Shown here piece after piece: positions 4,417-64,000 of a stretch of DNA of 64,000 bases; positions within the stretch are counted from its first letter, which is position 1; each line of letters opens with the position of its first letter. The stretch is from NCBI GenBank assembly GCA_951799425.1, contig OX637407.1:27029691-27093690 (forward strand), written 5' to 3'. Source of the DNA: Ilex aquifolium (lineage: Eukaryota > Streptophyta > Magnoliopsida > Aquifoliales > Aquifoliaceae). The position numbers and the translations under genes are program-made. Below the pieces are notes generated by a model. The model did not search any database. It was not told the DNA's origin and saw only the letters and a list, made by a program, of their open reading frames with translations.

Positions 4417-4495
4417 TACAATAAAGGACTTACAGTGTGAAGTATGAACAAGAAGAAATTGTAAGATGACCCCCATTTTTTTCACTTGGTAGTAT

Positions 4496-4607
4496 CAAAT
4501 GAGCCCAGGAGTTCCCCCAAACACTTCAGTAGGGAGTAGTATCCTCTAGGCAGAGAAAAGAAAAGCCCCTAGTGAAGTGTTTAAGGGAACTCTAGGGAAC
4601 ACCTGAT
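4496..4607 (-). ncRNA. MIR395: MIR395 precursor hairpin (copy A)
   Basis: The minus-strand transcript folds into a stem. The 3' arm (plus-strand positions 4509-4529) reads CTGAAGTGTTTGGGGG followed by AACTC, identical to canonical plant miR395. The 5' arm, from 4571-4596, carries the partly complementary star strand (AGTTCCCTTAAACACTTCAC). Outer pairing extends to the ends given. A TATA box lies upstream on the same strand at 4663-4671. In plants miR395 is induced by sulfate shortage and targets ATP sulfurylase and SULTR2;1 mRNAs. Confidence 0.93.
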
Positions 4608-4662
4608 CTTCCTTAATGCTTCTACTGTGTTTGCTTTGGTAAGCCCTTGCCTAAAATCCTCA

Positions 4663-4671
4663 CTATTTATA
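4663..4671 (-). promoter_or_regulatory. TATA box of MIR395 copy A
   Basis: TATAAATAG on the minus strand, about 55-65 bases upstream of the hairpin. The same box precedes copies B and C. Confidence 0.6.
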
Positions 4672-5059
4672 ATGTGTTGTTGCCTTCGAAAATAGTCTTA
4701 AGTGTTCAGGCTCAGAATAGAGATATTCAACAAGCCAAACCCTAGGAGAATGTACCTAGTCGCGAATTCGGGGTAGATGAAAGGTATAGAATCATAGGTG
4801 AGTTGAGTGGTCCTGTAAATCCTATCCTTTTTCATTCTGTAGTATCTTTGGCCTCTCATTTTTCAGATTTTCTTGTAAATATAAAGCTCACTGAATCTCA
4901 GAAGTTGGTATTGCAATTTTGTGTTTGTTTCATGCACATGTAATGCAAGGCCCAGAAGCAACTTTATGTCAAGTTGATTGCAATGGCAATATTAATGGGT
5001 GGGCCACCTTGATTTCTTGACCAAAACCTAATTTCATCAATGTTAAATAACTAATCTTT

Positions 5060-5205
5060 ACTTATGCGGTCTTGTTTGCGACATGTGTTTCATGGGATCG
5101 AATTTCGGAAACATTTTGTGCAAGATAAGATTGCATACATTCGACTCTCTCAAGTTCTTGCACTTTATAGTGACAAGAGTCTTAGCTCGTACACAGAACT
5201 ATGAT
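5060..5205 (+). repeat. SINE-like repeat, family 2, copy a
   Basis: Contains the hallmark order of a widespread plant tRNA-derived SINE: gggatcgaatttcggaaaca (B-box region), a gcaagataagattgcataca segment and a decayed 3' part. Related to the copy at 14866. Confidence 0.55.
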
Positions 5206-6024
5206 TATGGACAATAATTATCATTACTTAGATATCATGGAGTAGTGCATAAGCACATGGACTTGGGTAAAATGTACTTGTGTCCATAACCTAATGGCTT
5301 TCAATCTTTGAAAAAAGTTGAAAAGGATAGAACTTAGAGATGAAAGAGTTGAGAGGGAGAGGAACTTTTGGCCACTCCCCAAATTATATTCTCTACCCCT
5401 CATCTGACATACAATTCTGGCCAGGTTCAATCATCGACTTCTGAACATTCGATTACTTTTGTATCTCTTTCCTCTCAAATTGCTATATGCACTTGTAAAG
5501 ATCACACCATTTCTAAACTAAAATAAACATACAGACTAATACAGTACGTATAGCAGAAGACTACATGACAAATCAAGACTGTTGAAAACAGAGCTGATCT
5601 GGTGCCAATTAGAGTTGATTCTAGGTGACAGTGTCAAAAAATTTCAGAAGATCTAATTTTGGAAAGCTCTCGACGATCTAAGCAAAATTAAGTATCCTTC
5701 AACCCGTCATTTTTTCAAGGCACTTTTTAGACACTTTTATATTTTATCCCGTTGTTTGGAGTATATTCGTAATATTGCTTATTTGCTTGATTTTTCTAGT
5801 AATTTAGGATTATTAGGGTTTTATATTTTTATTATCTTGAAAACTAATTCAGCAGTTTTAGTTTTGATTTGAATAAAAACTTAGAAACGAGTTATCTTTT
5901 CTTCCCAATTACTTTGGTATTCTGCGAAATCAACAAGACTCTTGAAAATTCTAATCTAGTATTATTGCAATAATCAACAAGGTATAGCTTTTATTGTTTA
6001 ATCTCATTTCTTCATTCAGGCTAT
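5206..6024. other. Intergenic, nothing recognised
   Basis: AT-rich sequence between the SINE-like copy and MIR395 copy D. Short open frames here are not supported by motifs or splice sites. Confidence 0.5.
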
Positions 6025-6130
6025 CCTGCATCACAGACTCATCCCATAACCACTTCATTAGAAAAGGCACTGAACTAAGGCCGAAATGCACAAGACCTAG
6101 GCTGAAGTATTTGAGGGGAACCCTTCTTGC
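6025..6130 (+). ncRNA. MIR395-like hairpin, divergent (copy D)
   Basis: The 3' arm at 6102-6122 reads CTGAAGTATTTGAGGGGAAC then C, a recognisable miR395 variant that differs at several positions. The 5' arm ACTCATCCCATAACCACTTC at 6037-6056 resembles the star arm of copy C, but pairing is weaker. No TATAAATAG box was seen upstream. Probably a decaying or diverged family member. Confidence 0.55.
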
Positions 6131-7984
6131 CCCATGACACTGGTTGATGTGTTTTGGGTACTTGTTCTGCACTAATCCATGTTTCTATGTTTTAAGTATA
6201 ATATTAACATTATATTACTTTATGAAAAATTTCAGTGGTTAATAACAACTTTTCTTGCTGTTGATATTTATTGGAGGGATAAAAGCTAACTTTGCTGAAG
6301 ATAGTGTGACTTTATGATGTTGACACTCTTGTTTCATTCAGCTCCACCCCTGTAGTGAGGGGATTACTTAGTCCGAACCTACCTCGACTTTGATATTCCG
6401 AATAAGTGACCAACACGACTGGTAGGGTTGTGAAATTTGTAACTCAATCGAATACCATTTGTCACGTTCTTGCAATTCAAAAGCTTAAGTTATTAAGTGA
6501 AAAGCCGACTAAAATCTTAAAACTCCATAAGTCACCCCTTACTCAATTGATGTAGAGTGTGACATTGCATGTTATTCTCTATGTATACATACGTATTAGT
6601 TATTATTGAATTATATATCTATTGATGTGTAAGAAATATTATGAACATATTATCATTTGTGTAAGATATATCACATATTTCATGTGGTTATAGAGTCAAT
6701 TAAGACGAGGTATGATGATTGAGATAGGCAATTTTTATGTCAATTACTAGAATGAGAAATCATGACAAAAAATCAGAAAAACTAGGAAAAAACACACAAA
6801 AAAAAAAAAAGAAACGGAACCAACTAGAAACTAACTCTTGATCACATTCATAAAAGATTATGAAAATGAATGTTTTCACTTATCTGTATCTTAGTTTTTA
6901 GTCCCATGTTTGCTCCAAGTCCCATGTCAAAACTACTCACATTGTACCGTACCTTCAGACACAGGTTACCCCTAGCATTTTATACATGATATCACACATA
7001 ATATATATAATATCAGTGGTGGAACATGAAACTTCAAACTGAGGGCCAAATAAAAATACTAATTTTTTTTTACCAAATAAAAATACTAATTAAAGTTTTC
7101 AAAACTATAAAGGTGGCCCTCCAAGCCCCATAGCCTAGTTCTTTCCTTGCAACATATTTACATGCAATATATATATACACACACATATACATGTACGAAT
7201 ATTCACGAGGTGAACAAATTATCATTGGGCTTAAATGACCTCTAAAATTGAATTCGAACTCAATCCATTTGATTAATGCAAGCAGGCCAGTGATGCGCTT
7301 GATAGACCTAACACAAATGTAAACAGATCCATCTTCTTCAAAATAAGCTGAGTAATGAAGAGATTCTGTGGATTCTGGATTTTTATAAACTTCATAGTTA
7401 TTAGAAGCCCTTATAAGAACAGTCTGCAGTAGTCTAGCCATTTGGTAGATTTTTCTTGTCATGCATGTGTCGGACCCCCCAACTAACCCCCCTTCGCCTC
7501 TTGATGAGTAAGCTCTGTAAGCCGGCTCTTCGTTGGTTGGCCATTAAATTAATAGTCAGTTTTAACATTGAATAAAGTTTACTGTGATCATCGAATTAAG
7601 TTGTCAAGTTTGGTACAATATCACTGTTGGGATTTTCAATTAATAACAAAATATATTCTGCCGAAGATTATTGAACAATATTTATCGAAGAATGTGAATT
7701 TAGATTCCCTCCAAAAATATTTTTCTTAAATTTCTTTCAATAGTAGTTGATAATCGTGATTACCTCATAGATATCCAATAAAATTAGCAAGTTTACTAGA
7801 AATGATCGTACTTGCCCATTGGACAATTGAATATGTTACTTTCCTTCGGAATAGTTCAAGGTCCTCGTCAAAGAAGCAAGCATGACCATTTCAAGTAAAC
7901 CTTTTTTTTTTTGGATAGCATAGCAAGAGTACTACAACACGACATCACACTATGAGGGATTGAACCCGACACATCTAATGCCAC
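6131..7984. other. Intergenic, no supported gene
   Basis: AT-rich. One unbroken minus-strand frame at 7070-7462 (130 codons) looks moderately protein-like but has no recognised motif, neighbouring exon or homologue known to me, so it is not called as a gene. Confidence 0.4.
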
Positions 7985-8185
7985 ACAAAATAGGGACGAA
8001 TTATAAACTTAAACGTAATAAGTTTAAAAGTTGACAACTCTATTAAAGTTAGGCCATGAAGAATTTATTATTTATTAATTTCTTAATCCCGACATAGATA
8101 CTCTACTTTTGACTGAACAGGGGAGAAGATTAGTTGAGATACGCATAAGTTGACTCGAACACCTCTGACCGCGATATCAAAAAAA
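7985..8185 (+). repeat. SINE-like repeat, family 1, copy d, A-tailed
   Basis: Matches copies b and c over aaacttaaacgt, aggccatgaagaattta, gagaagattagttgagatac and gactcgaacacctctgac. It ends in a poly(A) run at 8179-8195. Confidence 0.65.
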
Positions 8186-8526
8186 AAAAAAAAAATCTAA
8201 TGCCACACCGGAGATCTTTAACCAATCTAATGCCACACCCCTGATCGACCTCAGGTCCCATTTAAAGTAAACTTAGCTCAAAGGGAATGTGTTGTCCATT
8301 AGACAAAGAGACAGAGACATCTTTGAATAGAATTTTCTAAAGATTAGACCAACTACTTCAACATTTTCAACTATATATTCGACTGTTCATACTGAATGAT
8401 GAGCAGCATATATCTCAGTCAACATTTAATTATTTGCAACAAAGTGATGGAGTTTTTTTTTTGTTAAAGTAAACTGTATTAATTTTCAAATGTATACAAC
8501 ATTATAAATCTGTACCAATAAGACAA

Positions 8527-8709
8527 GAGTAATGCTACACTAACCAAATTTTGGGACTAAATTTAGAACCCAAATGACATAACAGCATGTCATTTGGAGT
8601 CTTTATTGGGGCCCAAATGACATGACACCAAATAAATAAACCCAAGTCAGTTGTAATGTCATTTGGGCTCCAAATTTGATCCCAAAATTTAATCAGTATA
8701 GCATTACTG
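8527..8709. mobile_element. Mutator-like MITE with 9-bp target duplication
   Basis: 183-bp element with long terminal inverted repeats. The left end gagtaatgctacactaacca mirrors the right end (reverse complement cagtaatgctatactgatta), and similarity continues through the AAATTTTGGGA and CCCAAATGACAT blocks. It is flanked by a perfect 9-bp direct repeat ATAAGACAA at 8518-8526 and 8710-8718, the target-site length typical of Mutator-like elements. No coding capacity. Confidence 0.88.
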
Positions 8710-9203
8710 ATAAGACAAATATGATAGTTGAAATATCCAAACGAATTCTAAAATATAATTCTACAAATCTGTTTAATCTGTGTTATGAATCTTTTTTAAG
8801 TGGTTTAGCTACAATTACCATGTTATGAATACGTTTGATAATTTTCAAAATATCAAACACATTTAATGAAATAAATAAAATTAATATTGACTAATACTTA
8901 ACACAACACAACACGACATTGTCATCCTCCTTGGTGCCGTGTGTGTATGTTGTAGAATAACCGATGGACCTTTGGTCTAATGTTACTCCTTATTTTATAA
9001 AAATTTTGTCTTCTTGAACTTAATGGTTCAAGTCTCCTTCCCCCTCCCCCTCTCCCTCCTCCAAAAAAGAAAAAAAAAAAAAAAGAATGGAAACAACAAA
9101 TCAGCTGGTGTAGCTGAAAAAAATTGGTTAGAAAGTGGGGCCATTTCCCTAAAAAAAGTTTAAAAAAAAAATATTGTAGAATAGATTCTAAACTTACCAA
9201 TCC

Positions 9204-11983
9204 ATGGCTTTTACAGTCATCAGAATCAATCTTGTCTCTCTAGTCATCCTTCTCTGTTGGTTTATAGTTGTGGACAATACAGTAGCAGAAGTACTCAATC
9301 CACTCCTTCTAAAGCTTAGCGTTTGTTGTTTTTTTTAACTATAACTCATCTCTTTATGGCTTAATTCAGTGGTTTAATCATGGCGGCGACATAACTAACA
9401 GGAGGTATGCCGCCGGAGAATTGCTGATCAACCCAAAACGGTTCACAATCTCCGGTTAAAATGGAAATTCTTCGCCGGAAAAGACATATCTGCAACACCA
9501 GCGGTGGCAAATGGGGTAGTGTACTTCCCATCATGGAATGGGTATTTGTATGCAGTGAATGCCTTCACTGGTAGTCTTATATGGAAGCAAAACGTCGGCG
9601 AGTTAACTGGGTTGCCGGGAACCGGGACTGTGGTGAAGGTGTCGGTGTCGAGAGCCACTCCTACGGTGGCCGGGAACCTTTTGATCGTCGGAATTTATGG
9701 ACCTGCGGTGGTGATTGCCGTCTCACGGTGGACTGGAGAGCTTGTTTGGTCGACTCGGATTGACCCGCGTCCTCTAGTGCTGATCACTGCGTCTGGAACA
9801 GTTCACTTAGGGTTTGCTTTCTCTCTCCTATCCTTCTTTCATCCTTCTAAAAGTTTACTGACTATAGTTCTTGGTGGGTTTTCGTTGTTGTATTTACTGT
9901 GGTAGGCATTGGTGAAGTTTCTGGTTTTTAAAAAAAATTAAACAATTTTAATAAAAATAAGGGTAAATATCATAATTCGTCCTTAAATTTTACATCCAAG
10001 TTCAATTTGATTCATAAACTTTTAATTGTTTTAATTTAATCACTCAACTATCAATCTCGTCTCAATTAAATCATTTAATCTATATTCACCGTTAAATCAA
10101 TCAGAGACTAGTCCTATCTGGTCCAAGTGTTAAATTACATATTTACGTATTATCGAATGTTGTGGTAATTATTCTGCATAAATATTCTAAATTAATACAA
10201 AGTAGTATCATAACTCTTGTCCAAGGGTACCATCACTCACTTTCCTAAGTCTTTATCTTCTCTTGATAAAGCTATCTAGGCAAAAATGACTGAGAATTAA
10301 TATGTCCATTTCATTAAGGGCATTCTAAGTTGGAGTATCATCGCTAGAAGAAACCCTAGCAGCCAACCAATGTTGCACTTTCCGGGGCAGCATGGTGAAG
10401 CTAGATGTTAAAACCGGTGCAATTTTGTGGCAAACCTATACACTTCCAGATAATGGTGGCAGACTTGGAGGCTACGCCGGGGCAGCTAAATGGGGAAGCA
10501 GCCCCGCCATCGACATTGCCAGGGGGATTGTTTACGCCGCCACTGGCAACCTCTACACAGCTCCACCAGAGGTGTTGCGGTGTCAGGAAGCTCAGAATAA
10601 TCAAACAAGACCTAGTGGTCCTGATCAGTGCATTGGACCAGATGTTAATTTCAACTCAATTTTAGCATTTGAAATTGGTTCTGGAAAGATTGTGCGGTTT
10701 AGGCAACTGAGGGGCTTTGATATTTTTTTATGTTGCATGTTTGGTTCCTAATAATCCTGATTGTCCACCGGGACCTAATCTGGATGCGGATTTTGGGGAG
10801 GCTCTGATGTTGCTAAGCATATTTGTCAATGGAACGATACGCAATTTGGTGGTAGCAATGCAGAAAAGTGGCTTTGCATGGGCTCTTGATCGTGACAATG
10901 GCGATATAGTTTGGTTTAAGGTAAGTACATATTTGATTGTTGGGTATGGGATCGCGATGCCCTAGTGTTTTCTTTACAAGGGTAGTGTCAGCCGACTCAA
11001 CCCCTAGGACGAATCGTCATAGTGGTAGTGGGTTGTCCTCCACAACCCTTAGGAATATAAAACGTATACGAATTCCACTTTATTACCAGATTTTCTTTAC
11101 AAGGGTAGTTTTATGCAGCTATTACAAAGCTTTGTGGGTGAAATATGAACTAACACATGAGTGAGATTAATAGGTAATCCTAGAGTGACAAAAAAGTGGG
11201 ACTTGATAATATGGTGCTCGTGTGGCGGGGCTAACTAAGCAAAACGTCAATTTGGTGCTTGATTTTTGGATCAAAATTTTGTAGCTCTTTTTAAATTTCT
11301 ATGAAACAAAATTTTGAATCTCGTTTTGAACGTCGATTTGGCGCTAGTCTTACATATTTGTTCAGAATTTTTCGATTGGTTGCTACTGTCACACTAGTAC
11401 CACACCTTTTGGTCACAATTTCTCTTCCTATTTTGTGGTCACTGTAGCATATTATAACCTTACTTGATTTCTCCATACTGAACCGGTTATTAATTCACTA
11501 AGAACTTTACTATCAATTTTGTAGTTGGCTGGACCAGGAGGCAATGAAGGAGGAGGGACATGGGGTGCAGCCACAGATGGAAAGAGAGTATACACAAACA
11601 TAGCCAACAGCAACAGAGAGAGCTTCACACTTGCACCATCAATCCAAACCACAACAGCAGGTGCATGGGTGGCCCTGGATGCAAACACTGGCCAAATCCT
11701 ATGGTCCACTGCAAACCCTAGCAACGACACGATGCAGGGGCCTGTCACGTTGGCCAACGGAGTCCTTTTCACTGGCTATGTGGCTCCTAATGGCCCTCTA
11801 TACGCCATGAATGAGAAAACCGGGACTATTTTGTGGTCATTCAAGACTGGTGCTACTATATATGGGGGAGTCTCAGCAAGCTATGACTGCATTTACCTTG
11901 GTAATTGATATACAATTGGTCCGGGAACTTTCCACCCATCTTGGACTCCAGGAACTTCACTCTATGCCTTCTGCATTGCATGA
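9204..11983 (+). pseudogene. PQQ beta-propeller (polyvinylalcohol-dehydrogenase-like) pseudogene
   Basis: Full-length but damaged gene. Exons: 9204-9290 (signal-peptide-like MAFTVIRINLVSLVILLCWF), 9370-9811, 10319-10920 and 11525-11983, with GT/AG borders. It encodes the repeated PQQ blade motif: AVNAFTGSLIWKQ, KLDVKTGAILWQ, ALDRDNGDIVWF, ALDANTGQILWS and AMNEKTGTILWS, as well as PSWNGYLYA and VPNNPDCPPGPNLDADFG typical of this plant family. Damage: a one-base deletion near 9432-9440, a TAA at 10326-10328 in place of a conserved Tyr, a frame change in the T-run near 10724, and a TGA at 11906-11908 about 25 codons before the normal end. AATAAA signals occur at 12181 and 12228. Several independent lesions argue for a pseudogene rather than one sequencing error. 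Confidence 0.85.
10968..11109. repeat. 19-bp direct repeat flanking a 104-bp segment
   Basis: ttttctttacaagggtagt occurs at 10968-10986 and again at 11091-11109 within the last intron of the PQQ pseudogene. It could be the footprint of a small retro-insertion or a local duplication. Confidence 0.5.
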
Positions 11984-12240
11984 AGAAATATGTTGTGTCC
12001 ACCAATACTTTTATCAAATTTTAGATCCTAAACGACGTGGCACATAGTCAAACGTTTTGCTACGTCTTTTGGTGGATGAAACATTGTTGTTACATGAAAG
12101 ACTTGACCTTGGGACAGGTTTGTTAGCTGACTAGGTGTGCCACTGAGTAGTCGTCTGAAGATTTGCTCAGTATGTCCTTCAATAAATGTTTTGAGCTATT
12201 ATTGTAATGTCTTTGAAATTTTTTGAGAATAAAATACATT

Positions 12241-13380
12241 GACTTATCAAAAAAGAAGACTAGACATTTTGAAAGTAACTGAAGATTGAAAGAGGAATTT
12301 TTTGGATTGTATCATATAGGCCCTGTAAGAAATAATTTTTTTACTTGCGTTGGTTTCTGAGTATTGTTGGGGGAAGCTGAAAACTTCCTTCACTCGAGTG
12401 AATCTTGTCAAAACTGCCTTTGATTTCAGCAACATAGTGATGTTTGGCTTCAAGTAAAGTACCATCCCTAAACATGTATTGAAGTACTAGATCAGCTAAC
12501 GCACCCATGTTGATGCGATGTATTCCACCAGTTATTGCTTTTCTGTTAGCTTGAACATGAATTACAAATTCTCGATTTTAGGGAAGCCAACAAGTGTGAG
12601 CGCCTAGAGTGAACCCCTACCAATATCTTGGTCTTTTGGAGAGAAGATATCTTTGACTTTTCCATGATTGAAGGCAATGTCTAATTTACTTCTACCATGC
12701 AAGAAGGGAAACATAAATAAATCATAAAAGAAACCAAAAAAAGAAAAGAAAGTAAAGATGACTTCATATTCAAAAATTGGCTCATACCGGTACACGTTTG
12801 AGCTTAAACTTTTAGGTCAAGTTTGAGTTCAACTGTACATTAATGCTTTACCATGTGCTCCTTCCTACACTGACAATCAAGAAAAATATCATTCATATGT
12901 GAGTGGGAGTGTTGGAGTTCCAAAAAAAAATCCGTCACGTTGGAAAGAAATAAAAAAGTAGATGACTTCAAATATAAAGATTGCACTAAACAGCTATGAG
13001 TTGTTTTTTTAGTTATAGGGTATTTAGTCTTCTACCGACTACTCCTTCAAGTTCAGCGGTTCGCCTGAACTGGGTTAGAGCATGTCTCTAAAAGAATAAA
13101 GGTGATTAACCCTTAAAAGATGTGGGAATGAATTGAACTGAAAATTTTTGGATTTTCAAAAATTAGACTCAATCACTCAGGGTTAAACCGCGAGTTTGAC
13201 CTTAAAATTTTGGGTCAAAGTTGAGACCAGATTCCTAACAGTGCCACTGATCTTGCATAGTCATCTACCCTATTCAACTAGAAAGAGCAGTAGCTTTAGG
13301 GCTGTGAAACATACAGAACCCTAATGCTATAGAATAGATACACTAAAATGTGAGGAATTTTCAACCTATTATACACTAAA
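12241..13380. other. Intergenic with a dispersed repeat
   Basis: No gene seen. The part around 13010-13140 (ctactccttcaagttcag, acatgtctctaaaag..) resembles 50310-50440 (ctacttcttcaagctcag, acatgtctcttgaga..), so both are copies of one unidentified dispersed repeat. Confidence 0.4.
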
Positions 13381-13384
13381 TAAT

Positions 13385-13505
13385 GTCAGGTGGCACCCAG
13401 AGTTCCCCCAAACACTTCAGTGGGATAGGATTAACCTTTACTCTAAAAAGAGCATCTCAAGATAATCCCAATGAAGTGGTCGGGAGAACTCCAGGGGAGA
13501 CCTGA

Positions 13506-13506
<1 letters not shown>
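13385..13506 (-). ncRNA. MIR395: MIR395 precursor hairpin (copy B)
   Basis: Minus-strand stem-loop. The 3' arm (plus-strand 13400-13420) is the exact canonical miR395 sequence, beginning CTGAAGTGTTTGGGGG. The 5' arm from about 13468-13493 is a divergent star (GAGTTCTCCCGACCACTTCA). The lower stem extends to a gtcaggt/acctgac pair at the two ends. A long (GA)n leader and a TATA box lie upstream on the same strand. Confidence 0.93.
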
Positions 13507-13507
<1 letters not shown>

Positions 13508-13565
<58 letters not shown>

Positions 13566-13582
13566 TCTTCTTCTTCTTCTTC
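13508..13582. repeat. (CT)n/(TTC)n microsatellite
   Basis: An uninterrupted CT run of about 27 units is followed by TTC repeats. It lies between the TATA box and hairpin of MIR395 copy B and would be (GA)n in that primary transcript. Confidence 0.95.
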
Positions 13583-13616
13583 TACTTCCTTGGCAAACTA
13601 ATACACATCAAACCAC

Positions 13617-13626
13617 CTATTTATAG
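13617..13626 (-). promoter_or_regulatory. TATA box of MIR395 copy B
   Basis: CTATAAATAG on the minus strand, about 110 bases upstream of the hairpin and separated from it by the microsatellite. Confidence 0.6.
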
Positions 13627-14647
13627 CAACTTGATAAGTTCATATTGTGGTATACATTTGGACATGGAGGACCTCGTTTGGGAGGAAAGAAACCAGGGTA
13701 AGTACATTTGGAGAGCTTGAACCTGGCCGGGATTTTGGGTCGGATGATAGATAAGGAATAATATGGAGGTGAGTAACCACAAATCTGCCCTCTGCCCATC
13801 TGTGTTATCTCGCTTTCCAACTTTTCCTTTGAAATATGCTCTTTTTTAGAAGCACGAGATCCTGTTATGGGTCTAAAAAGATCATATATATATATATGCA
13901 CTCTTATTCTTATGCTCAAAAGAACTTTAACATTAAAAGCTACATTACTTATGTGAAAGACGTGTTTACAATAACTAAGTGCATGAGGTCAAGCATTCTC
14001 ATATAGGATATGGGTAAATGCAGTAGAAAGATTTTTTTTTTTTTTTGGCTATTTAAAAAGTTGGAAAGGAGCACCAGCGCTGGGCATGACTAAAAGATTC
14101 TTACCCGCTACCAAATATTCGATTTAAATCATAGTTACTAAACTGAAAATGGTCGAACCCGTCACTACATCGCCCACCGAACGGCATCTAGTTCACACAA
14201 CTTGCTACCACAAGCAGATTCAAATAAAATGTGGATTGGTATGAAGTTGACGAGACTGTAGAGGATACAACAGAAAAAAAGGTGGAATGGTGAGGCGCCG
14301 ACTGACTTACTTTCTCTACCATGCATCTACCCTGCGGTCATGTCTAGGTTCAGTATTCACTGCTATAAGATTCAATACCCACAGCTTTATAGACTGAACT
14401 ATCTCCAAATATCCTTTGGTGAAGAATACTTTCCACATTATCAAGTCATACGGCCTTAATTCAAAACGGACAATGTAGTTAAGTCTTTGCACTCACGTCC
14501 AACTAGAGTGGTAGATTGTGGTAACTCGGACCCATCCCATTAATTTATTTAATAAAGTGTCAATTTTATATAATTTTAAACCAAAATAAATAATATTATA
14601 TGCTGCTTGATATTACGTACCTAGAAACCAATGTACGCATTACGACA
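13627..14647. other. Intergenic, nothing firmly recognised
   Basis: Repetitive-looking sequence between two head-to-head MIR395 units (copy B minus, copy C plus). No transposon ends or coding exons could be supported. Confidence 0.4.
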
Positions 14648-14657
14648 CTATAAATAG
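14648..14657 (+). promoter_or_regulatory. TATA box of MIR395 copy C
   Basis: CTATAAATAG about 70 bases upstream of the hairpin, identical to the box upstream of copy B. Confidence 0.65.
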
Positions 14658-14727
14658 TGGCATTGGCACATAGGTCGGCATGGCTTCCCCAATCAATTGA
14701 AGCAAAGGCTAAATGACTTCTCAAGTC

Positions 14728-14832
14728 AGATTTCCCCTAGAGTTCCCTTAACCACTTCACTGGGTACTCATCGTAAGTAAAAAGGCATTGTTACCCACTG
14801 AAGTGTTTGGGGGAACTCCTGGGGTTATTTGA
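14728..14832 (+). ncRNA. MIR395: MIR395 precursor hairpin (copy C)
   Basis: Plus-strand stem-loop. The 5' arm AGAGTTCCCTTAACCACTTC with ACTGGG follows at 14740-14764. The 3' arm at 14798-14818 is the exact canonical miR395 21-mer, beginning CTGAAGTGTTTGGGGG. The base of the stem pairs tttcccctag with ctggggttat. It is the cleanest hairpin of the cluster and is divergently oriented to copy B about 1.2 kb away. Confidence 0.94.
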
Positions 14833-14865
14833 TAAATTATAAAGAGTGTGAAGAGAAGACGAATC

Positions 14866-15022
14866 TTGGCGTAACGGTAAGGTTATTTTATCGTGACTTA
14901 GAGATCACTTGTTTTAATTGTAGAAATAAAATCTTTACTTACAGAGGTAAAGTTACATACATTTAATCCTCCACAGATTACACAATGACGAGAGTCTCGT
15001 GTATTAAATACGTCTTTTTTAT
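14866..15022 (+). repeat. SINE-like repeat, family 2, copy b
   Basis: A tRNA-like head (tggcgtaacggtaaggtt, gtgacttagagatcac), then ggtaaagttacatacattta, as in common tRNA-derived plant SINEs, with a T-rich end. Imperfect flanking repeats agtgtgaag / agtgtgagg may be the target duplication. It starts about 35 bases after MIR395 copy C. Confidence 0.6.
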
Positions 15023-16683
15023 GAACAGTGTGAGGGCTGGTGATATTACTATCAATTCCTCATATGTCAATATTGCAGGCAAAGTTGAACGTATGGATTT
15101 GGGTTCTAGTTGAAAACTTGCAAGTCTTTCTTTTAAAGTTGCTATAATCCGTGACCTGTCCTACTGTCCTACTGTTTGTAGCTGGATTAGTATTTTTTCT
15201 CCACTGTAACACATTGGGAATGCTGCCTGTCAGGATATAGAGCTGTTAAACAATCCAAGGTAACTCGTGATCGGTATGGCCTGAGAGCCGAATCTGAATA
15301 AATTTTTATCCGAGTCGATAGATAAAAAATATTGTATTTCACCTTCCGAGCAAATGCATTATAAAAGACCAATTTTTTTATCAACTCTATCCAATCAAGG
15401 ATTATGTTATAACCGAATTTTGTTCAAAAAAAATCAGTTTTGAATTCGAATAGAATTACAAAATATATCACATATTTGTAATTTTTGAATTATTAATTTT
15501 TAAATCATTTTAACAACTCAATTAAAATAATTTTTGGACTACTTTTACAATTAAGTTGTTAAAATATAATATAATAATATGTAAACCAACACAATAAACC
15601 AATTACATTGAAAAAACATAATAAATCCTATATATATATTCTCTAAAATTCTAAAACACCATACATAAACAACTACAAAACAATGTCATTTTATAACAAA
15701 TATTTTTTTTTCAAAAAGTAAATATATATACGGGTGTCAAGGAGGAATGCAAAATTTTTATGGGTATTCCGCATTCCTACCCAATCATTTGCGGAATACT
15801 GCAATTTGTTTCATAAGCCAGCCAAAAATTTGTAGAATTCGAATAATCAGATTAGGTAGGCGGAAATTTAAACACCCCTAAGTAGAGATGATGAATCGCA
15901 TATTGAATACAGACCAACCATGGCAACACCCCCATGCTTCATCAATAAATTCAGAGATTTCAAAGTTTACATCAATGGCACTAACAAGGTATGCCTGTGA
16001 TGGTAATCCCATTGTGAATCTCATTGCTAGTATGAAAACCCAACCACCCTAATGTCTACATTTATAAGCCCATCAAAAACTAGACAGTGTAACACAGCAG
16101 GCACACCACACTTTTGTTATCCAAGTTCCACAACTATAATCTAGACAGACAGACAAAAAAGAAAATTTTCAAACAATTCTCTAATTTCCTTTAAACCTCC
16201 TCTTGATAACTTTGCGACAACATGTCTGAGTGTAGGCCAAATCACCTCCTCCACTCTGCTTGGATCACCACCTCTGAAATTGAAAGACAGCCTTCAGGGC
16301 AGATCAGAAAAGTGAAATAAGCATCTCATAAAACCTATAATCAACAAAAAAACCAGATGACTATTGTGATCCATGAATTCAAAAATGAGAATATCCACTA
16401 AAACATTCAATTATGTTGTACATACAACCATGTCTAATATGAGGCTGACCATGAATACTAGAAGCACACAGCTGATGTAAGAACTCTAGGTGTCAACAGC
16501 ATTATTAGAGAACAAAATCAAGCTGTTCAGATTACTGAAGATGAACTCAACTATTGAAAGGAAAATCTCAAGATCATAATCAAGCCTTCAAAACCTCCTT
16601 ATTCTTAGGACAGCTTTTGCATTACCCACAAACAATATGCATGCATAAATGCACATACACTTTATCCATCGGATATAATCATC
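15023..16683. other. Intergenic; presumed 3' flank of the IQD gene at right
   Basis: 15,240-15,880 is AT-rich and repeat-like (two tatgcggaat-type blocks near 15,770 and 15,800). The last several hundred bases probably include the IQD 3' UTR on the minus strand. No separate gene seen. Confidence 0.4.
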
Positions 16684-35601: not shown

Positions 35602-38211
35602 TTATTTAAAATTAATTTTTCTTACTTTTTGAGTTGCAAAAGTATTAATTAAGGTTTTATATTCAAGTTTTGCTACCATATTTTTTTCAATTGATAATAT
35701 CGCTAATCCAGTTAATCTTTCTTGTGACATAGTCGATCTTAAGTAAGATTTTATCAATTTTAATTTTGAAAAGCTTCTTTCCGCAGAAGCAACTGTTACA
35801 GGAATTGTTAATAATATTCTATAAGCAATACATACATTTGGAAAAGAATCTAACTTTTTTATATAATTTAGTATCTCAATTGGAGTATTTTCTTTCGTTT
35901 GTAAAATTTCTTTTAAAACATTTAGTTCTAAAAATAAATCTAAGCCATCAATATCGGAAAAAATTTCGTGTTTTAAGAAACATTCGAGATCCAAACAATA
36001 TTGTTTTAAACTATTATTGGTCAATGATTTTAATTTTTCTAAGTTAAATAAAAAATCAAAAATATTTTCTTACTTTTGTAATTGTTCAAATCTATTTTTT
36101 AGTGAAGAAATAGCTTGATCAATTATATATGTAAAATAATCAATTTTAAAAGATTCTTCAATAGATTGTGTTATATCATCATCAACATTTTCATCAAATT
36201 ATTTTTTTCTACGAACTCTACGTTTTTCACGAAATATAGGTTCTATACCCATTTCAAATGCAATCTCTTTAGATGAAATCATAGCATTTGCAAATCCACT
36301 TTCCCTATATTTTTCAAAAAAAGAAATGAGACCTTTTAATTGATTTATAGCAATATCAATATGCATGTCTTTTGATTGTAAATATTTACTAACTAAGTTG
36401 ACGGAAAATAAAATATCATACCAAATAGTCATGCCCAATAAGAATTCAAAATTCTCAATCTCATATGTTGCTAAACAATTAGCTTCACTCCTTGTTTTAG
36501 GATCTTCACTAGTTTCCGCTAATTGCAATAATGCATCTCTTATTCTTGGAGCTTGAAATTTTATTGCTTTAACACTTTCAACATGACTTTCTCAACGTGT
36601 TTGTGATAATGACTTAAAAGTTAAACCTTGAATATTATCTTGTAAAAATTTTCATCGTTTTGTGGAAGAGGAAAATAATGAATATATACGTTGTACTATT
36701 CCAAAAAATGATATAGCTTTGGGACAAGAGTTAGTCATATCACAAAGTACTAGATTTAAATTATGACAACCACATGGTGTGTAAAATGCTCTAGGATTTA
36801 TATTGAGTAGCCTTTCTTGTACACCTTGATGTTTTCCTTTCATGTTAGACTTATTATCATATCCTTGTCCTCGTACATCATTAATATCTAATTCAAGATT
36901 ACTTATTACATCTATAAGTTTATCAAATAAACATTTTCCACTCGTATCATCTACTTTAATAAACTCTAAAAAATATTCTTCTATTTTTATTGGACTTATT
37001 GTAATATCTACGCATCGTAATATGAGAGACATTTGTTCTTGATGACTTGCATCGGGAGTACAATCAAGTACAATTGAATAATATTTTACTTCTTTAACTT
37101 TTTTAATAATATTGCTTCTTACTTCATTTCCTAACAAACTTATCAATTCATTTTGTATGTTATGTCCAAGATAATAATTATGAATTCTATCTTGTTGAAT
37201 ACGACGAACGTATTCTTGCATTATCGGATCAAATTCCGCAATCATTTCAATTAAACTTAAAAAATTTCCATTATTTTCTTGATATATCTTTTCATTTTTT
37301 CCCCGAAAAACTAAATTATTTTTACCAAGATTCTTTACAACGGCAATAATTCTTACTAATACATTTTGCCAATATTCTTTCTCTCTATTAATTTGTTCTT
37401 GGATATTTTTATCAATTGTTTTATTTAGTTGCAATCTTGTTTCTAATTCAATCAAAGTATTCATATTAGTTATATGCTCATTAGTTATTTCATGATTTTT
37501 AAGCTTAACACCAATATTTCTCCAATCTTTTGTTCCTTCATTAGCTAGTTTACTTGTAGAATAATTCATATTGAATAACTTGCAACAAAAACAAAATATT
37601 TTATCTAAATCTTTTGAATATACTAGCCATCTTCTATCAAGTGTTTCCCTATTTGTTAATTTGCGAATATAATGTGTAGTGGAAAAATGTCTAGAGTGTT
37701 CATCCCGAGGAAAATCTAAATTATTATATCTAATTGGACCATTTTCTACTAATAAATCTCTTAATTTCGTATCAATATTTTTCCATTGACTTGGATCATA
37801 AATATTTATATGACTATAATCACTTGTTTCATTAAGATTTTGATTGTCTTCTATTTCATTATATTTTATTTCACTATTTTCTTTTTCAATATTTTCTATT
37901 TCATTATCCTCTATTTTATTATCTTTTATTTCAATATTTTCTACTTCAATATTTTTTATTTCATTATCTTCTATTTCATTAACTTTTATTTCAATATTTT
38001 CTATTTCAATATTTTTTATTTTATTCTCTTCTATTTCATTATCTACTTGTTCATTTTCAAAATTTTCATCTAAATTTTTTGTTACATTATTTTTGTTACT
38101 AGTAACAAATTTATCAAGAGATCCTTTTTGAGATTCTATTAGTTGATCTATTTTTTTTTTTTTTTTTAATTTTTCGTATCCACTTGGTTGTCTTCTAGTT
38201 CTAGGTGTCAT
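35602..38211 (-). pseudogene. hAT transposase (TTF-type zinc finger / DUF4371 / hAT dimerisation)
   Basis: One reading frame of 870 codons without frameshift but with four in-frame stops: TGA at 36652-36654 and 36592-36594, and TAA at 36199-36201 and 36070-36072. The first two fall where family members have Trp (KRxKFLQDN and TRxESHVES). Domains in order: basic start, an acidic low-complexity repeat of NEIEDNEIKNIE type (about residues 50-125), a TTF-type zinc-finger region with DRRWLVYSKDL and FCFCCKLFN, a DUF4371/RNase-H-like core with YYSIVLDCTPDASHQEQMSL and GQGYDNKSNMKGKHQG, and the C-terminal dimerisation motif VASAERSFSKLKLIKSYLRS. It is an inactive copy unless readthrough occurs. Family placement is secure. 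Confidence 0.9.
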
Positions 38212-38960
38212 ATTATTAATATATTATAACTATATAACAACCAAACAAACACAATATATAGTATAGTTAAAAATATATAACAAAAAAATTTAAAATTATG
38301 AAACAATAGAATCTGGCCTGAATGATCTCAAATGTTGGCTTTTTTGTTCTAAACCATGTCCCTTATGTTGAAATGAAAACTCGAGTTGATGATGGAGGAT
38401 GGAGTGGAGGCCGAGTCGGAGTCAGGTGCCGATGAGTGATCTGTGAGTTCTCCACCCCTGGCTGTAGCACTTGGCAAAAAAAAAAAAAGTGATCTATGAG
38501 TAACGAGTTCACTGATTTGGGACTTGAGAGCACTGTGTGAGAGAGAGAGAGAGGGAAGAAGCAAGAGTTTTTTTTTTGTTTCAGACTAGTTTCAGTATAA
38601 TGAGAGATAGAGAAAGAAAAATAGTTGTTTTTGTGTAGTTGGTGTGGTTGGTTTACCGAGAGATAGAGAGAGAGAGAGAGAGAGATTGTGTGTGAAAAGG
38701 AAGATATGATTTGACTTTTTTATTTTTTTTGGTGGCTTTGATATGATCTTTCAGTTTTTTTTTTTTTTTTAATATTGTTAATTTTTTTTAGATATTTAAT
38801 GTTTGGATTGAATTATGGGCCTAAAATAGTTGATTGGGCTTATATTTTTATAAGGCTTTTTTTTACATAGGTTATTTACAATATTTAAAAATTTGGGGCC
38901 TTCCTTTGAAATAGGGCCTAAAGCCCAGGCTTTTTTACACCTTCTGTTGGGCCGGCCCTG
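38210..38960. other. 5' subterminal region of the hAT element
   Basis: Non-coding sequence between the transposase start and the right terminal repeat. It has (GA)n tracts and T-runs and presumably holds the transposase promoter on the minus strand. Confidence 0.5.
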
Positions 38961-59797: not shown

Positions 59798-62700
59798 TAA
59801 GAATTCCACGTTGTGGCCGTGGACACCTGGGCTCGAACCCAGCAAAATCAATGACTGACCCAACTGCCCAACATCGACTGACCCAACCCAGCAACAAAAT
59901 TAGCCAACCATCGCAACAACCTACTGCTCTTCAGGAAACCAGCCCACTGTTGGGTCGTGCTTTTCGTCACAGCTTCGTGTTTTGTCTTTGTGCTCCTAAT
60001 TATTAGGGACCGTAGGAACTTTTAAGAGGGGTTGAATCCTCTTCTCCGGTGATCTGCTTTTGATGCAGTAGATCATTTATTTATCTTTATTGGATTTCTT
60101 TATTGGACTTCTGGGCACCGTGACCTTGATTATTTGGGAGCTTTTTGGACCTTCTTTATCTGTCGCTACTGTTCGACTGGAAATATATTATTCTCCCTTA
60201 TTTTTTCCCTCTATTTATCTTAGAGTTATTTTTCTGTCACGAGTGCCCTAGTATTATTGATGATATGACTACTACTGAGGGAGTTGAGACCCCTACCGTT
60301 TAGACATCTGCTAGTACTTCCACCGGATATAGGGATCGACAACGCCCGGCCCAGCGCCGTCAAGGTACCCCACATTAGCGTAGACATGAGAATTCTCGTC
60401 AGTGTGATTATTGTGGCCGACTAGGACATCTCAGGGCTACCTGTTGGAAGCTCCATCCGGAGCTTAAGCCGCCTCCTCGCAGCCATACTACTGCCATTGT
60501 TAAGGCACCACCACCTATAGTCATTGCTCCTGCTACTACTGCTCCTCCTTGGCAGAGTGATATGGATGTTATCACTTCTCGCTTGGATATACTTATGTCA
60601 GCCTTGACTTCTCAAGGTTCGACTACTACTGCTGCGACTACTACAGGTATACCTCGTGCATTTCATACTTGCGCCAGTCCGTCTTCCCTTTGGATGCTGG
60701 ACTCGGGTGCTAATGGTCATATGACAGGTGAAGCCCATCATTTCACCTCTTTTGACGAGCAGTTACATACTCAAATTCAGTTAGCAGATGGTACACATGC
60801 CCCTATTGTTAGTAGGGGTACAGTCCGCCTTCCAGATGGCTTTACATTACGTTCGGTGTTTCATGCGCCAAAGCTGGCCATGAATCTATTATATGTACAT
60901 CAGTTAGCCAGAGATTTTCACTGTGCGGTTGTGTTCTTATCTGATTCGTGTTATTTGCAGGACCTGAGAACGAAGAGGATTATTATCAGGGGACATGAGA
61001 GAGATGAATTGTATTATCTAGGCGATCCACCTCCGGTTTCACCAGTTTCTCCACCTCCACCTCCATCACCTGCTTTGTCTTTATCTGTTCCTAGCTTGCA
61101 TGCTAGTATTTTACCTAGTACTTGTCACTATGATTTTTCATCACAAACTGTTCAGTTATGGCATGACCGTTTTGGGCATACAAATTTTAAATATTTATGT
61201 ATGTTATTTCCTGCTTTGAGCAAAGCTTGTGTTAGTGGTAAACTTAACTGTGTTATATGTTCCCTATCAAAACATGTTCGGACCAGTTATATTCCTCGCA
61301 TGCACCAGTCACCCAAACCATTTGACCTAATACACTCTGATATTTGGGGACCCTCTCCTGTTACTACTCTGTCAGGTGCTCGATACTATGTGACATTTAT
61401 AGATGACCATACCCGTTGTACTTGGGTCTACCTTTTGCATAGGAAGTCTGATGTACTCCCTGTCATCACTCAATTTCTCCAGATGATTAAGACACAATTC
61501 GATGTCATTGTTCGTGCTATTCATTCGGATAATGCCAAAGAATATGTGTCTGATGCCTTAGTGTCTCACCTTTCTTCTCAGGGTATCCTTCAGCAACTCA
61601 CTTGTCCATATACTCCTGAGCAAAATGGAGTTGCTGAAAGGAAAAATAGGAGTCTGATAGGGATGGTTCGTTGTATGCTTAGAGGTATGGGGGTACCAAA
61701 ATCTTATTGGCATTTTGCTGTTTTGACTTCTACCTTTTTGTGTAATCGTACACCGAGTCGTGTTCTTCAGCATAGGGCTCCCTTACAGGTCTTATTCCCT
61801 GAGCGGACACTTTTTTCGGTTCCCCCACGTGTTTTTGGCTGCACATGTTTTGTTCAGGATCGGTCTCCTACTAGCCATAAACTTGATGATAAAGCGATTC
61901 GTTGTGTCTTTATGGGCTATTGTCATCAGTCTAAGGGGTATCGGTGTTATGATCCTATCAGGCGTCATATGTATCATAGTCTAGATGTTACCTTTCTTGA
62001 GCATATTCCTTATTTTTCTTCCAGTCCTGTGTCTTCCCCTCCAATTGATGATACTCCATTTGATTTTTCATTACCACAGGAGTCAGAGCCATTGGTCACT
62101 ATCACTACAGAGTCATCAGTCTCTCCTCCTCCAGCGCCACTTATCCCTGTTAGTACAGAATCACCAGTCTCTCTTCCTTTGCAGGTTTATGTTCATCGCC
62201 CTCGCTCTCATCCCCCTGTTGATGTCCCCTCTACCTCAGGCGATGCAGGTAATACTTCTCAGTTCGTTGAGCTTATTGATACACCTGTTGTTAGTACTTA
62301 TGAGATTGCAGGTACTGAGCCAGTTACTTTACCTGATGAGACATTGTCAGTGGAGGATGATGATTTAGAGCGTCGTTATCCGCGACGTGATCGCCGTCCA
62401 GTTGTTCGTTATGGTTGGACCGCCAGTATTTTATATCCGATCTCTGCTTATGTTTCTTATGGTGATCTGTCTCCTACATTTCGAGCTTATAGCATGGCCT
62501 TATCAGATACGCCGATTCCTCGCTCTGTTTTAGAGGCTATGCGGGAGCCTCAGTGGGTTCTTGCCATGCAGACGGAGATGGACGTTCTTCAGCGTAATCA
62601 TACATAGGATCTTGTCTTCTTACCTTCAGGGATGAAGCCTGTTAGCTGTCGCTGGGTTTACACCCTGAAGTTTCTTGCGGATGGTACTATTGATCGTCAC

Positions 62701-64000
62701 AAGGCTAGTCTTGTGGCGAAGGGCTTTACTCAGGTACCAAGTCGTGATTTTGATGCTACATTTGCCCCTATGGCAAAATTGACTACTGTTCGGTTGCTTA
62801 TTTCTCTGGCTGCGGAGTACTCTTGACCTCTTCATCAGTTAGATGTGAAGAATGCATTTTTTCACAGTGATCTGGACGAGATTATATATATGGATGCACC
62901 ACCGAGCTTTCGTGGTGAGGGGGAGTATGTTGGAAAGGTATGTCGACTGCGTAAGTCTCTTTATGGACTGAAACAGTCACCACGAGCCTGGTTCTCTTGC
63001 TTTAGTGATGTAGTCGTACGTTTGGGGTTCACCAGATGTCATTTTGATCATACCTGCTTCATTCGACGGAATACTTCTGGACAGTATATCATCCTGTTGG
63101 TATATGTTGATGATATTATTATTACTGGAGATGATATTTCTGGAACTGCGCAGGTCAAGGTAGACCTTGGGAAGGCCTTCGATGTGAAGGACCTTGGATT
63201 TCCGCGATATTTTCTTGGGATTGAGGTTGTCCGTAGTAGTAGGGGTATTGTTCTTTCTCAAAGAAAGTATGTCCTGGATCTTCTCCCAGACACTGGGATG
63301 CTGGGGTGCAAACCGGCATCATCACCTATGATTCCAAACCTGAAGCTTACTGCTGAAGGTGAGGAGTTGAGAGATCCGACTGTTTATCAGAGGTTGGTAG
63401 GTAGACTTATCTACCTAGCCAACACTAGGCCAGACATTTCATTCGCTGTCAGTCGAGTTAGTCAGTTCATGCACAGGCCGTGTCAGCCTCAAGACACGGC
63501 CTCATCTTGATGCAGTTTATCATATTCTTCGGTACCTCAAGTCTTGTCCTGGACTTGGGTTGTTCTATGCATCAGGATCTCAGACTGGTTCTCTAGCCTG
63601 TTATTCAGATTCAGATTATGGGGGAGCGTGTGACGGTCGATCTACTACGGGCTTCTGTGCTTTTCGAGGGACTCATCTTATCTCTTGGAAGAGCAAGAAG
63701 CAGGCGGTTGTCTCCCGCTCTTCAGCAGAGGCAGAGTATCGGGCACTGGCACTTGGCACGTGTGAGATTATCTGGTTACGATCGATTCTTGGCGAGTTGG
63801 AATTTCCAGTGACTTCTCCATCCACATTATATTGTGATAATCGATCTGCTATTCAGCTCGTTTCTGACTCTGTACTACACGAGAGGACGAAGCATATAGA
63901 GATCGATGTTCATTTTCTTCGGGAGAAGGTTAGCTGTGGTATTGTCACTCCATTGTTTGTGGGGACCAGTGATCAGGTTGCGGATGTTTTCACAAAACCT

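Follow-up and report, generated by a model that had tools for sequence, protein, structure and literature searches.

Three intact MIR395 genes, a probable dead copy and a candidate UPE-like promoter element in a dispersed cluster of Ilex aquifolium

Three exact copies of miR395, a small RNA of sulfate regulation in plants, lie on both strands of one stretch of the Ilex aquifolium genome, and we wanted to investigate what these copies are and how they might be controlled. The stretch is C17:27029691-27093690 of a genome of ~800 Mb, and we use the word window for the whole 64 kb of it. We are confident that three intact MIR395 genes (a, b and c) and a probable dead copy (f) form a cluster here; the intact genes are most likely separate transcription units, probably under SLIM1-type induction. 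The three hairpins themselves are ordinary textbook MIR395 genes.

The mature miR395 sequence, CTGAAGTGTTTGGGGGAACTC, was found exactly three times in the window, once per hairpin, and at up to 3 mismatches there were no matches to it in 100 dinucleotide shuffles of the window. Hairpin a lies at 4493-4610 on the minus strand (mature 21-mer at 4509-4529), hairpin b at 13385-13506, also on the minus strand (13400-13420), and hairpin c at 14722-14836 on the plus strand (14798-14818). All three were recognised by the Rfam model RF00451 and by folding, and b and c additionally by the comparison with C9 given below. The original prediction, made from the letters of the window, had placed the copies at the same positions and strands. 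Full-length matches to RF00451 scored 77.4 bits for a, 68.5 for b and 73.4 for c, with a gathering score of 56 bits. For a and c the antisense strand exceeded the gathering score as well, because the hairpins are near-palindromic; the sense strands of a, b and c folded better than the antisense strands by 10.5 to 12.3 kcal/mol. The minimum free energies were -61.6, -64.7 and -55.9 kcal/mol for a, b and c, respectively (z = -8.5, -7.5 and -8.0). The folding check that had been proposed for each segment gave stable hairpins, as none of 200 shuffles folded as well as the sense strand in any of the three.

In every copy the mature strand belongs to the 3' arm, and of its 21 bases 1, 2 and 2 are unpaired in a, b and c; the three star arms are unlike one another. 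The arm and the star-arm difference had both been foreseen. Hairpins a and c are 93% alike across 41 nt. The mature 21-mer, the 3' arm and the hairpin model are the same as in MIR395 of Arabidopsis, rice, soybean and maize (RF00451). Sequence, fold, arm and Rfam model together support the assignment of a, b and c as MIR395 genes. A perfect (CT)27.5 run at 13508-13562 abuts the 5' side of hairpin b and is much shorter in the C9 copy.

The genome search with RF00451 gave 14 strand matches at seven places: a, b, c and C9b, C9c, C9d and C9e. C9b and C9c, at C9:25.359 Mb, are a copy of the diverging pair b and c. C9d and C9e, at C9:8.07 and 8.08 Mb, form a same-strand tandem pair 9.4 kb apart and score 55.9 and 55.1 bits, slightly below the gathering score. 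The exact CTGAAGTGTTTGGGGGAACTC was present in 6 of the 7 places, and C9d carries it with one mismatch. The comparison set 60 kb of C9 against the window's first 32 kb and the 10 kb that precede the window. Pieces of window 10130-15639 were 88-94% identical to C9, with the order kept and insertions between them, and the C9 copy contains the 3' half of a PQQ pseudogene as well as the diverging pair. To the right of 15639 there was no match within the stretches compared, and to the left of 10130 the matches were confined to the hairpin itself and a palindromic 187-bp repeat. This repeat is MITE-like (miniature inverted-repeat transposable element), lies at window 8525-8711 and has a second copy at C9:25339475-25339661. 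Matches of the R1 search at 8549-8686 (24.2 bits) were this repeat, present on C9, and were rejected as MIR395.

Differing star arms around an identical mature sequence had been offered as proof of selection on the mature strand. Star-arm difference is weak evidence when taken alone, and the segmental copy on C9 provides a better test. Against C9, the flanks showed 137 substitutions in 1769 positions (7.7%), hairpin b none in 122 (p = 7.5e-5), hairpin c 2 in 113 (p = 0.007) and the b promoter 6 in 218 (p = 0.003; all one-sided Fisher tests against the flanks). At the level of sequence, this comparison shows that hairpins b and c and the b promoter have been under constraint since the duplication to C9. 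The claim of selection therefore holds, with the whole hairpin conserved and not the mature strand alone. Three observations speak against a functional reading of every part: the c promoter module was not significantly conserved (3/86, p = 0.098); the test covers b and c, as no copy of a lies in the part of C9 that was searched; and ~270 bp before hairpin c, TATA box included, are absent from C9c. The genome search with 276 bp of the stretch preceding hairpin c matched the window itself and no other place, and the junction at C9c carries a short filler-like repeat, and for these reasons we infer that the gap is a deletion on C9.

Further, we looked at what the promoters have in common. A CYAGGTWCA core in identical orientation was present in 7 of the 7 MIR395 promoters of the genome, at -157 (a), -225 (b), -386 (c), -122 (C9c), -195 (C9b), -184 (C9d) and -184 (C9e). 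In the window, the element of a lies at 4743-4762 on the minus strand (core CTAGGTACA, weak UPE resemblance), and the UPE-like elements of b and c lie at 13710-13729 on the minus strand (core CCAGGTTCA) and at 14341-14360 on the plus strand (core CTAGGTTCA). Across both strands of 137 kb of other DNA the same word occurred twice, and 24 further loci, many of them from one repeat, had it 7 times in 145,728 strand-bases. It had been picked after the promoters were viewed, and therefore we made a matrix test without MIR395 promoters, with a matrix built solely from five exact UPE-boxes at other places of the genome.

These five boxes were the exact matches of the genome to the 20-nt UPE consensus, as we take it to read, with ~0.02 expected under equal base use. 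Three of them lie just above genes, one for LSU (PF24980) and two for APS reductase (PF01507). Searching the PDB with one short exon of APS reductase gave no match. No gene could be named alongside the other two, and none of the five sites falls at a MIR395 place. In the promoters of LSU and APS-reductase genes, the UPE-box is the site of SLIM1/EIL2 (PMC4206189, PMC4212615). The MIR395 elements resemble the five exact sites in the core CYAGGTTCA, and the boxes above LSU and the two APS-reductase genes match review accounts of Arabidopsis. At C6:3.99-4.55 Mb we observed a cluster of eight UPE-like sites with 1-2 mismatches, and in the one stretch read a DIOX_N dioxygenase open reading frame (ORF) stands beside the site.

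The best same-strand match to the UPE matrix fell on the common core in all seven promoters, and in all seven it beat the best opposite-strand match. C9d (19.6 bits), C9e (16.5) and b and C9b (14.3) all scored above the maximum of 438 background segments (13.2), and c and C9c scored 10.3 bits, reached by 2.3% of these segments. Of the MIR395 elements, C9d is closest to the exact 20-nt UPE-box, differing at three positions; b and c differ at five, and a has a variant core only. By descent, the seven promoters amount to about four independent cases (a, b, c and C9d/e). We suggest tentatively, and with somewhat less than even confidence, that every MIR395 gene keeps one equally oriented UPE-like element, that SLIM1 may control miR395 directly via a box of the LSU and APS-reductase type, and that the element can outlast its hairpin, as copy f might illustrate. 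Two results count against this suggestion. The matrix score of a was 5.2 bits, reached by 28% of the background and not significant, and the UPE consensus at up to 2 mismatches gave 48 matches while its reversed control gave 194; the looser list thus shows no enrichment.

Both results would fit the explanation that the copies share the core through common descent alone and that it is no SLIM1/UPE site. All copies are paralogues, with C9b/C9c and C9d/C9e recent ones, and in contrast to the UPE-box proper none of the seven MIR395 promoters has the exact 20-nt box. However, whole promoters of unlike copies align barely above shuffles, yet the core is kept in one orientation, and a matrix taken from sites beside LSU and APS-reductase genes places b, C9b, C9d and C9e above every background segment. 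We regard common descent alone as a plausible account to which we give about one chance in three. Of the seven hairpins, two have an exact tebs (AYGWAYCT) and four the SURE core (GAGAC) within the 600 nt upstream, with no consistent pattern for either. Among the literature matches listed, the accessible text held no report of a UPE-box in a MIR395 promoter.

The proposed direct control through a UPE-like element would also bear on copy f, a putative hairpin at about 6043-6117 on the plus strand with both arms decayed. It is probably the relic of a fourth MIR395 copy, although support from its sequence is modest. RF00451 was the best of 4227 families at this place (15.6 bits, E = 0.96, on the minus strand). 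Local alignments of f to a, b, c, C9d and C9e had scores reached by 2, 2, 0, 0 and 0 of 1888 background segments, respectively. A UPE-like element at 5418-5437 on the plus strand (13.0 bits, reached by 0.5% of background segments) stands ~600 nt above f in the right orientation, at a place chosen after viewing. We consider it unlikely that f is a chance resemblance and no dead MIR395, as long stretches of both arms are nearly exact and about correctly spaced, below a correctly oriented element, and as no other family matched better. In favour of chance are the E-values near 1 (the R1 search gave 9.9 bits, E = 0.83) and the minus-strand Rfam match; further, four unrelated places (8549, 7789, 20902 and 4186) outscored f with R1 in 22 kb, the filtered scans did not list it, and the UPE-matrix scan found no UPE-like element in the 600 nt directly above it. 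That a single pair gave rise to both a/f and b/c through inverted duplication would suit the likeness of hairpins a and c, but f is about equidistant from a, b and c and its element is equally close to those of b and c (0.57 each), so we did not adopt this origin.

A separate TATA box, in sense orientation, stands above every one of the intact genes. The TATA-like box of a is at 4663-4672 on the minus strand (one mismatch to CTATAAATAG, TATAAA at -69), that of b at 13617-13626 on the minus strand (exact CTATAAATAG, TATAAA at -124), and that of c at 14648-14657 on the plus strand, within the stretch absent from C9c (exact CTATAAATAG, TATAAA at -81). The boxes of b and c are the two exact occurrences of CTATAAATAG in the 64 kb. 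At one mismatch, 9 were found and 6.9 expected; this is chance level and detracts from the box of a. Genes b and c diverge from a common intergenic region, with ~1 kb between their TATA boxes. Because each intact gene has its own box, a, b and c are most likely three separate transcription units.

Compact miR395 clusters of rice have been reported as single polycistronic units (PMC2773440), but it is very improbable that the copies here come from one primary transcript, as b and c are on opposite strands, a pseudogene lies in the 8.8 kb that separate a from b, and each gene has its own TATA word. Equally improbable is that a local expansion of inverted repeats or transposons left the hairpins behind as non-functional relics: the probable dead copy f and the missing TATA stretch of C9c would agree with it, but hairpin b is unchanged over its full length beside diverged flanks, the mature sequence is exact in all but one place, and the family occupies seven places only in the genome. 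Separate transcription of functional genes is thus the reading we keep. According to PMC2773440, maize clusters are compact and same-strand, whereas the genes here have separate TATA boxes and lie on opposite strands over 10 kb. Clustering had been noted as a known habit of the family, and this is borne out, tail-to-tail copies in soybean included, in the accessible text of PMC3481472. Among the matches listed in a literature search for diverging MIR395 genes, none named miR395.

We also looked for the genes that the mature strand would act on. Three ATP-sulfurylase genes were found by PF01747 (C7, C11 and C12). In those on C7 and C11 a miR395 site lies within an open exon that has a PUA_2 domain, with penalty scores, by our own scoring, of 2.5 and 3.5; for C12, no site within 3 mismatches was among the matches listed. 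A gene on C20 with Sulfate_transp exons (PF00916), which we take to be SULTR2-like from the known miR395 targets, has two sites 72 nt apart at C20:24466773-24466865, with scores of 2.5 and 3.5. One lies just before the likely start codon and one after it, and both would lie in the 5' leader if the next ATG were used. Near-matches to miR395 within 3 mismatches were found at 106 places of the genome, and most of the 100 listed were one word, CTGAAGTTGTTGGTGGAACTC, which differs from miR395 at three positions. This word was on the plus strand in all 3 loci read and inside a same-strand gag-like ORF of a many-copy repeat in 2 of them; we rejected it as a target, as the transcript of these two loci would carry a miR395-like strand and not its target.

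The degenerate PQQ-protein gene predicted between the copies is indeed a pseudogene (BamB-like, PF13360) at 9399-11980 on the plus strand, between a and the b/c pair. PF13360 was found on 2 of the 3 ORFs scanned, and the frame is broken near 10.7 kb. Compared with a relative on C12, which is open across the exons seen, the window and C9 copies have one stop in common and further breaks in each. Because of the common stop, the break in the gene probably predates the copying of the segment. Elsewhere in the window, two ORFs at 60379-63510 (742 and 227 aa) are Ty1-copia polyprotein-like by eye, and a 523-aa ORF with DUF4371 at 36652-38223 on the minus strand is probably transposase-like, its N-terminal part spanning a repeat array of 15-nt period.

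By analogy with established miR395 biology, the genes would be transcribed, processed and induced as follows. When sulfate is short, each gene would probably be activated by a SLIM1-type (EIL) factor bound to the UPE-like element upstream of it. DCL1 would excise the 21-mer from the 3' arm, and this would load AGO1 and cleave the mRNAs of ATP sulfurylase and SULTR2-type transporters. Target sites in ATP-sulfurylase and sulfate-transporter genes and clustered copies are typical of the MIR395 family. Such clusters, tail-to-tail ones included, have been described before, as have the targets and the dependence on SLIM1 (PMC4206189, PMC9240705, PMC4212615, PMC9730805, PMC2773440, PMC12428225, PMC8539900, PMC10243980, PMC2822795, PMC3481472).

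In summary, with the genes themselves ordinary, the promoter element is the part that deserves a bench test. A UPE-like site common to all seven MIR395 promoters would make direct control of miR395 by SLIM1 easy to test.

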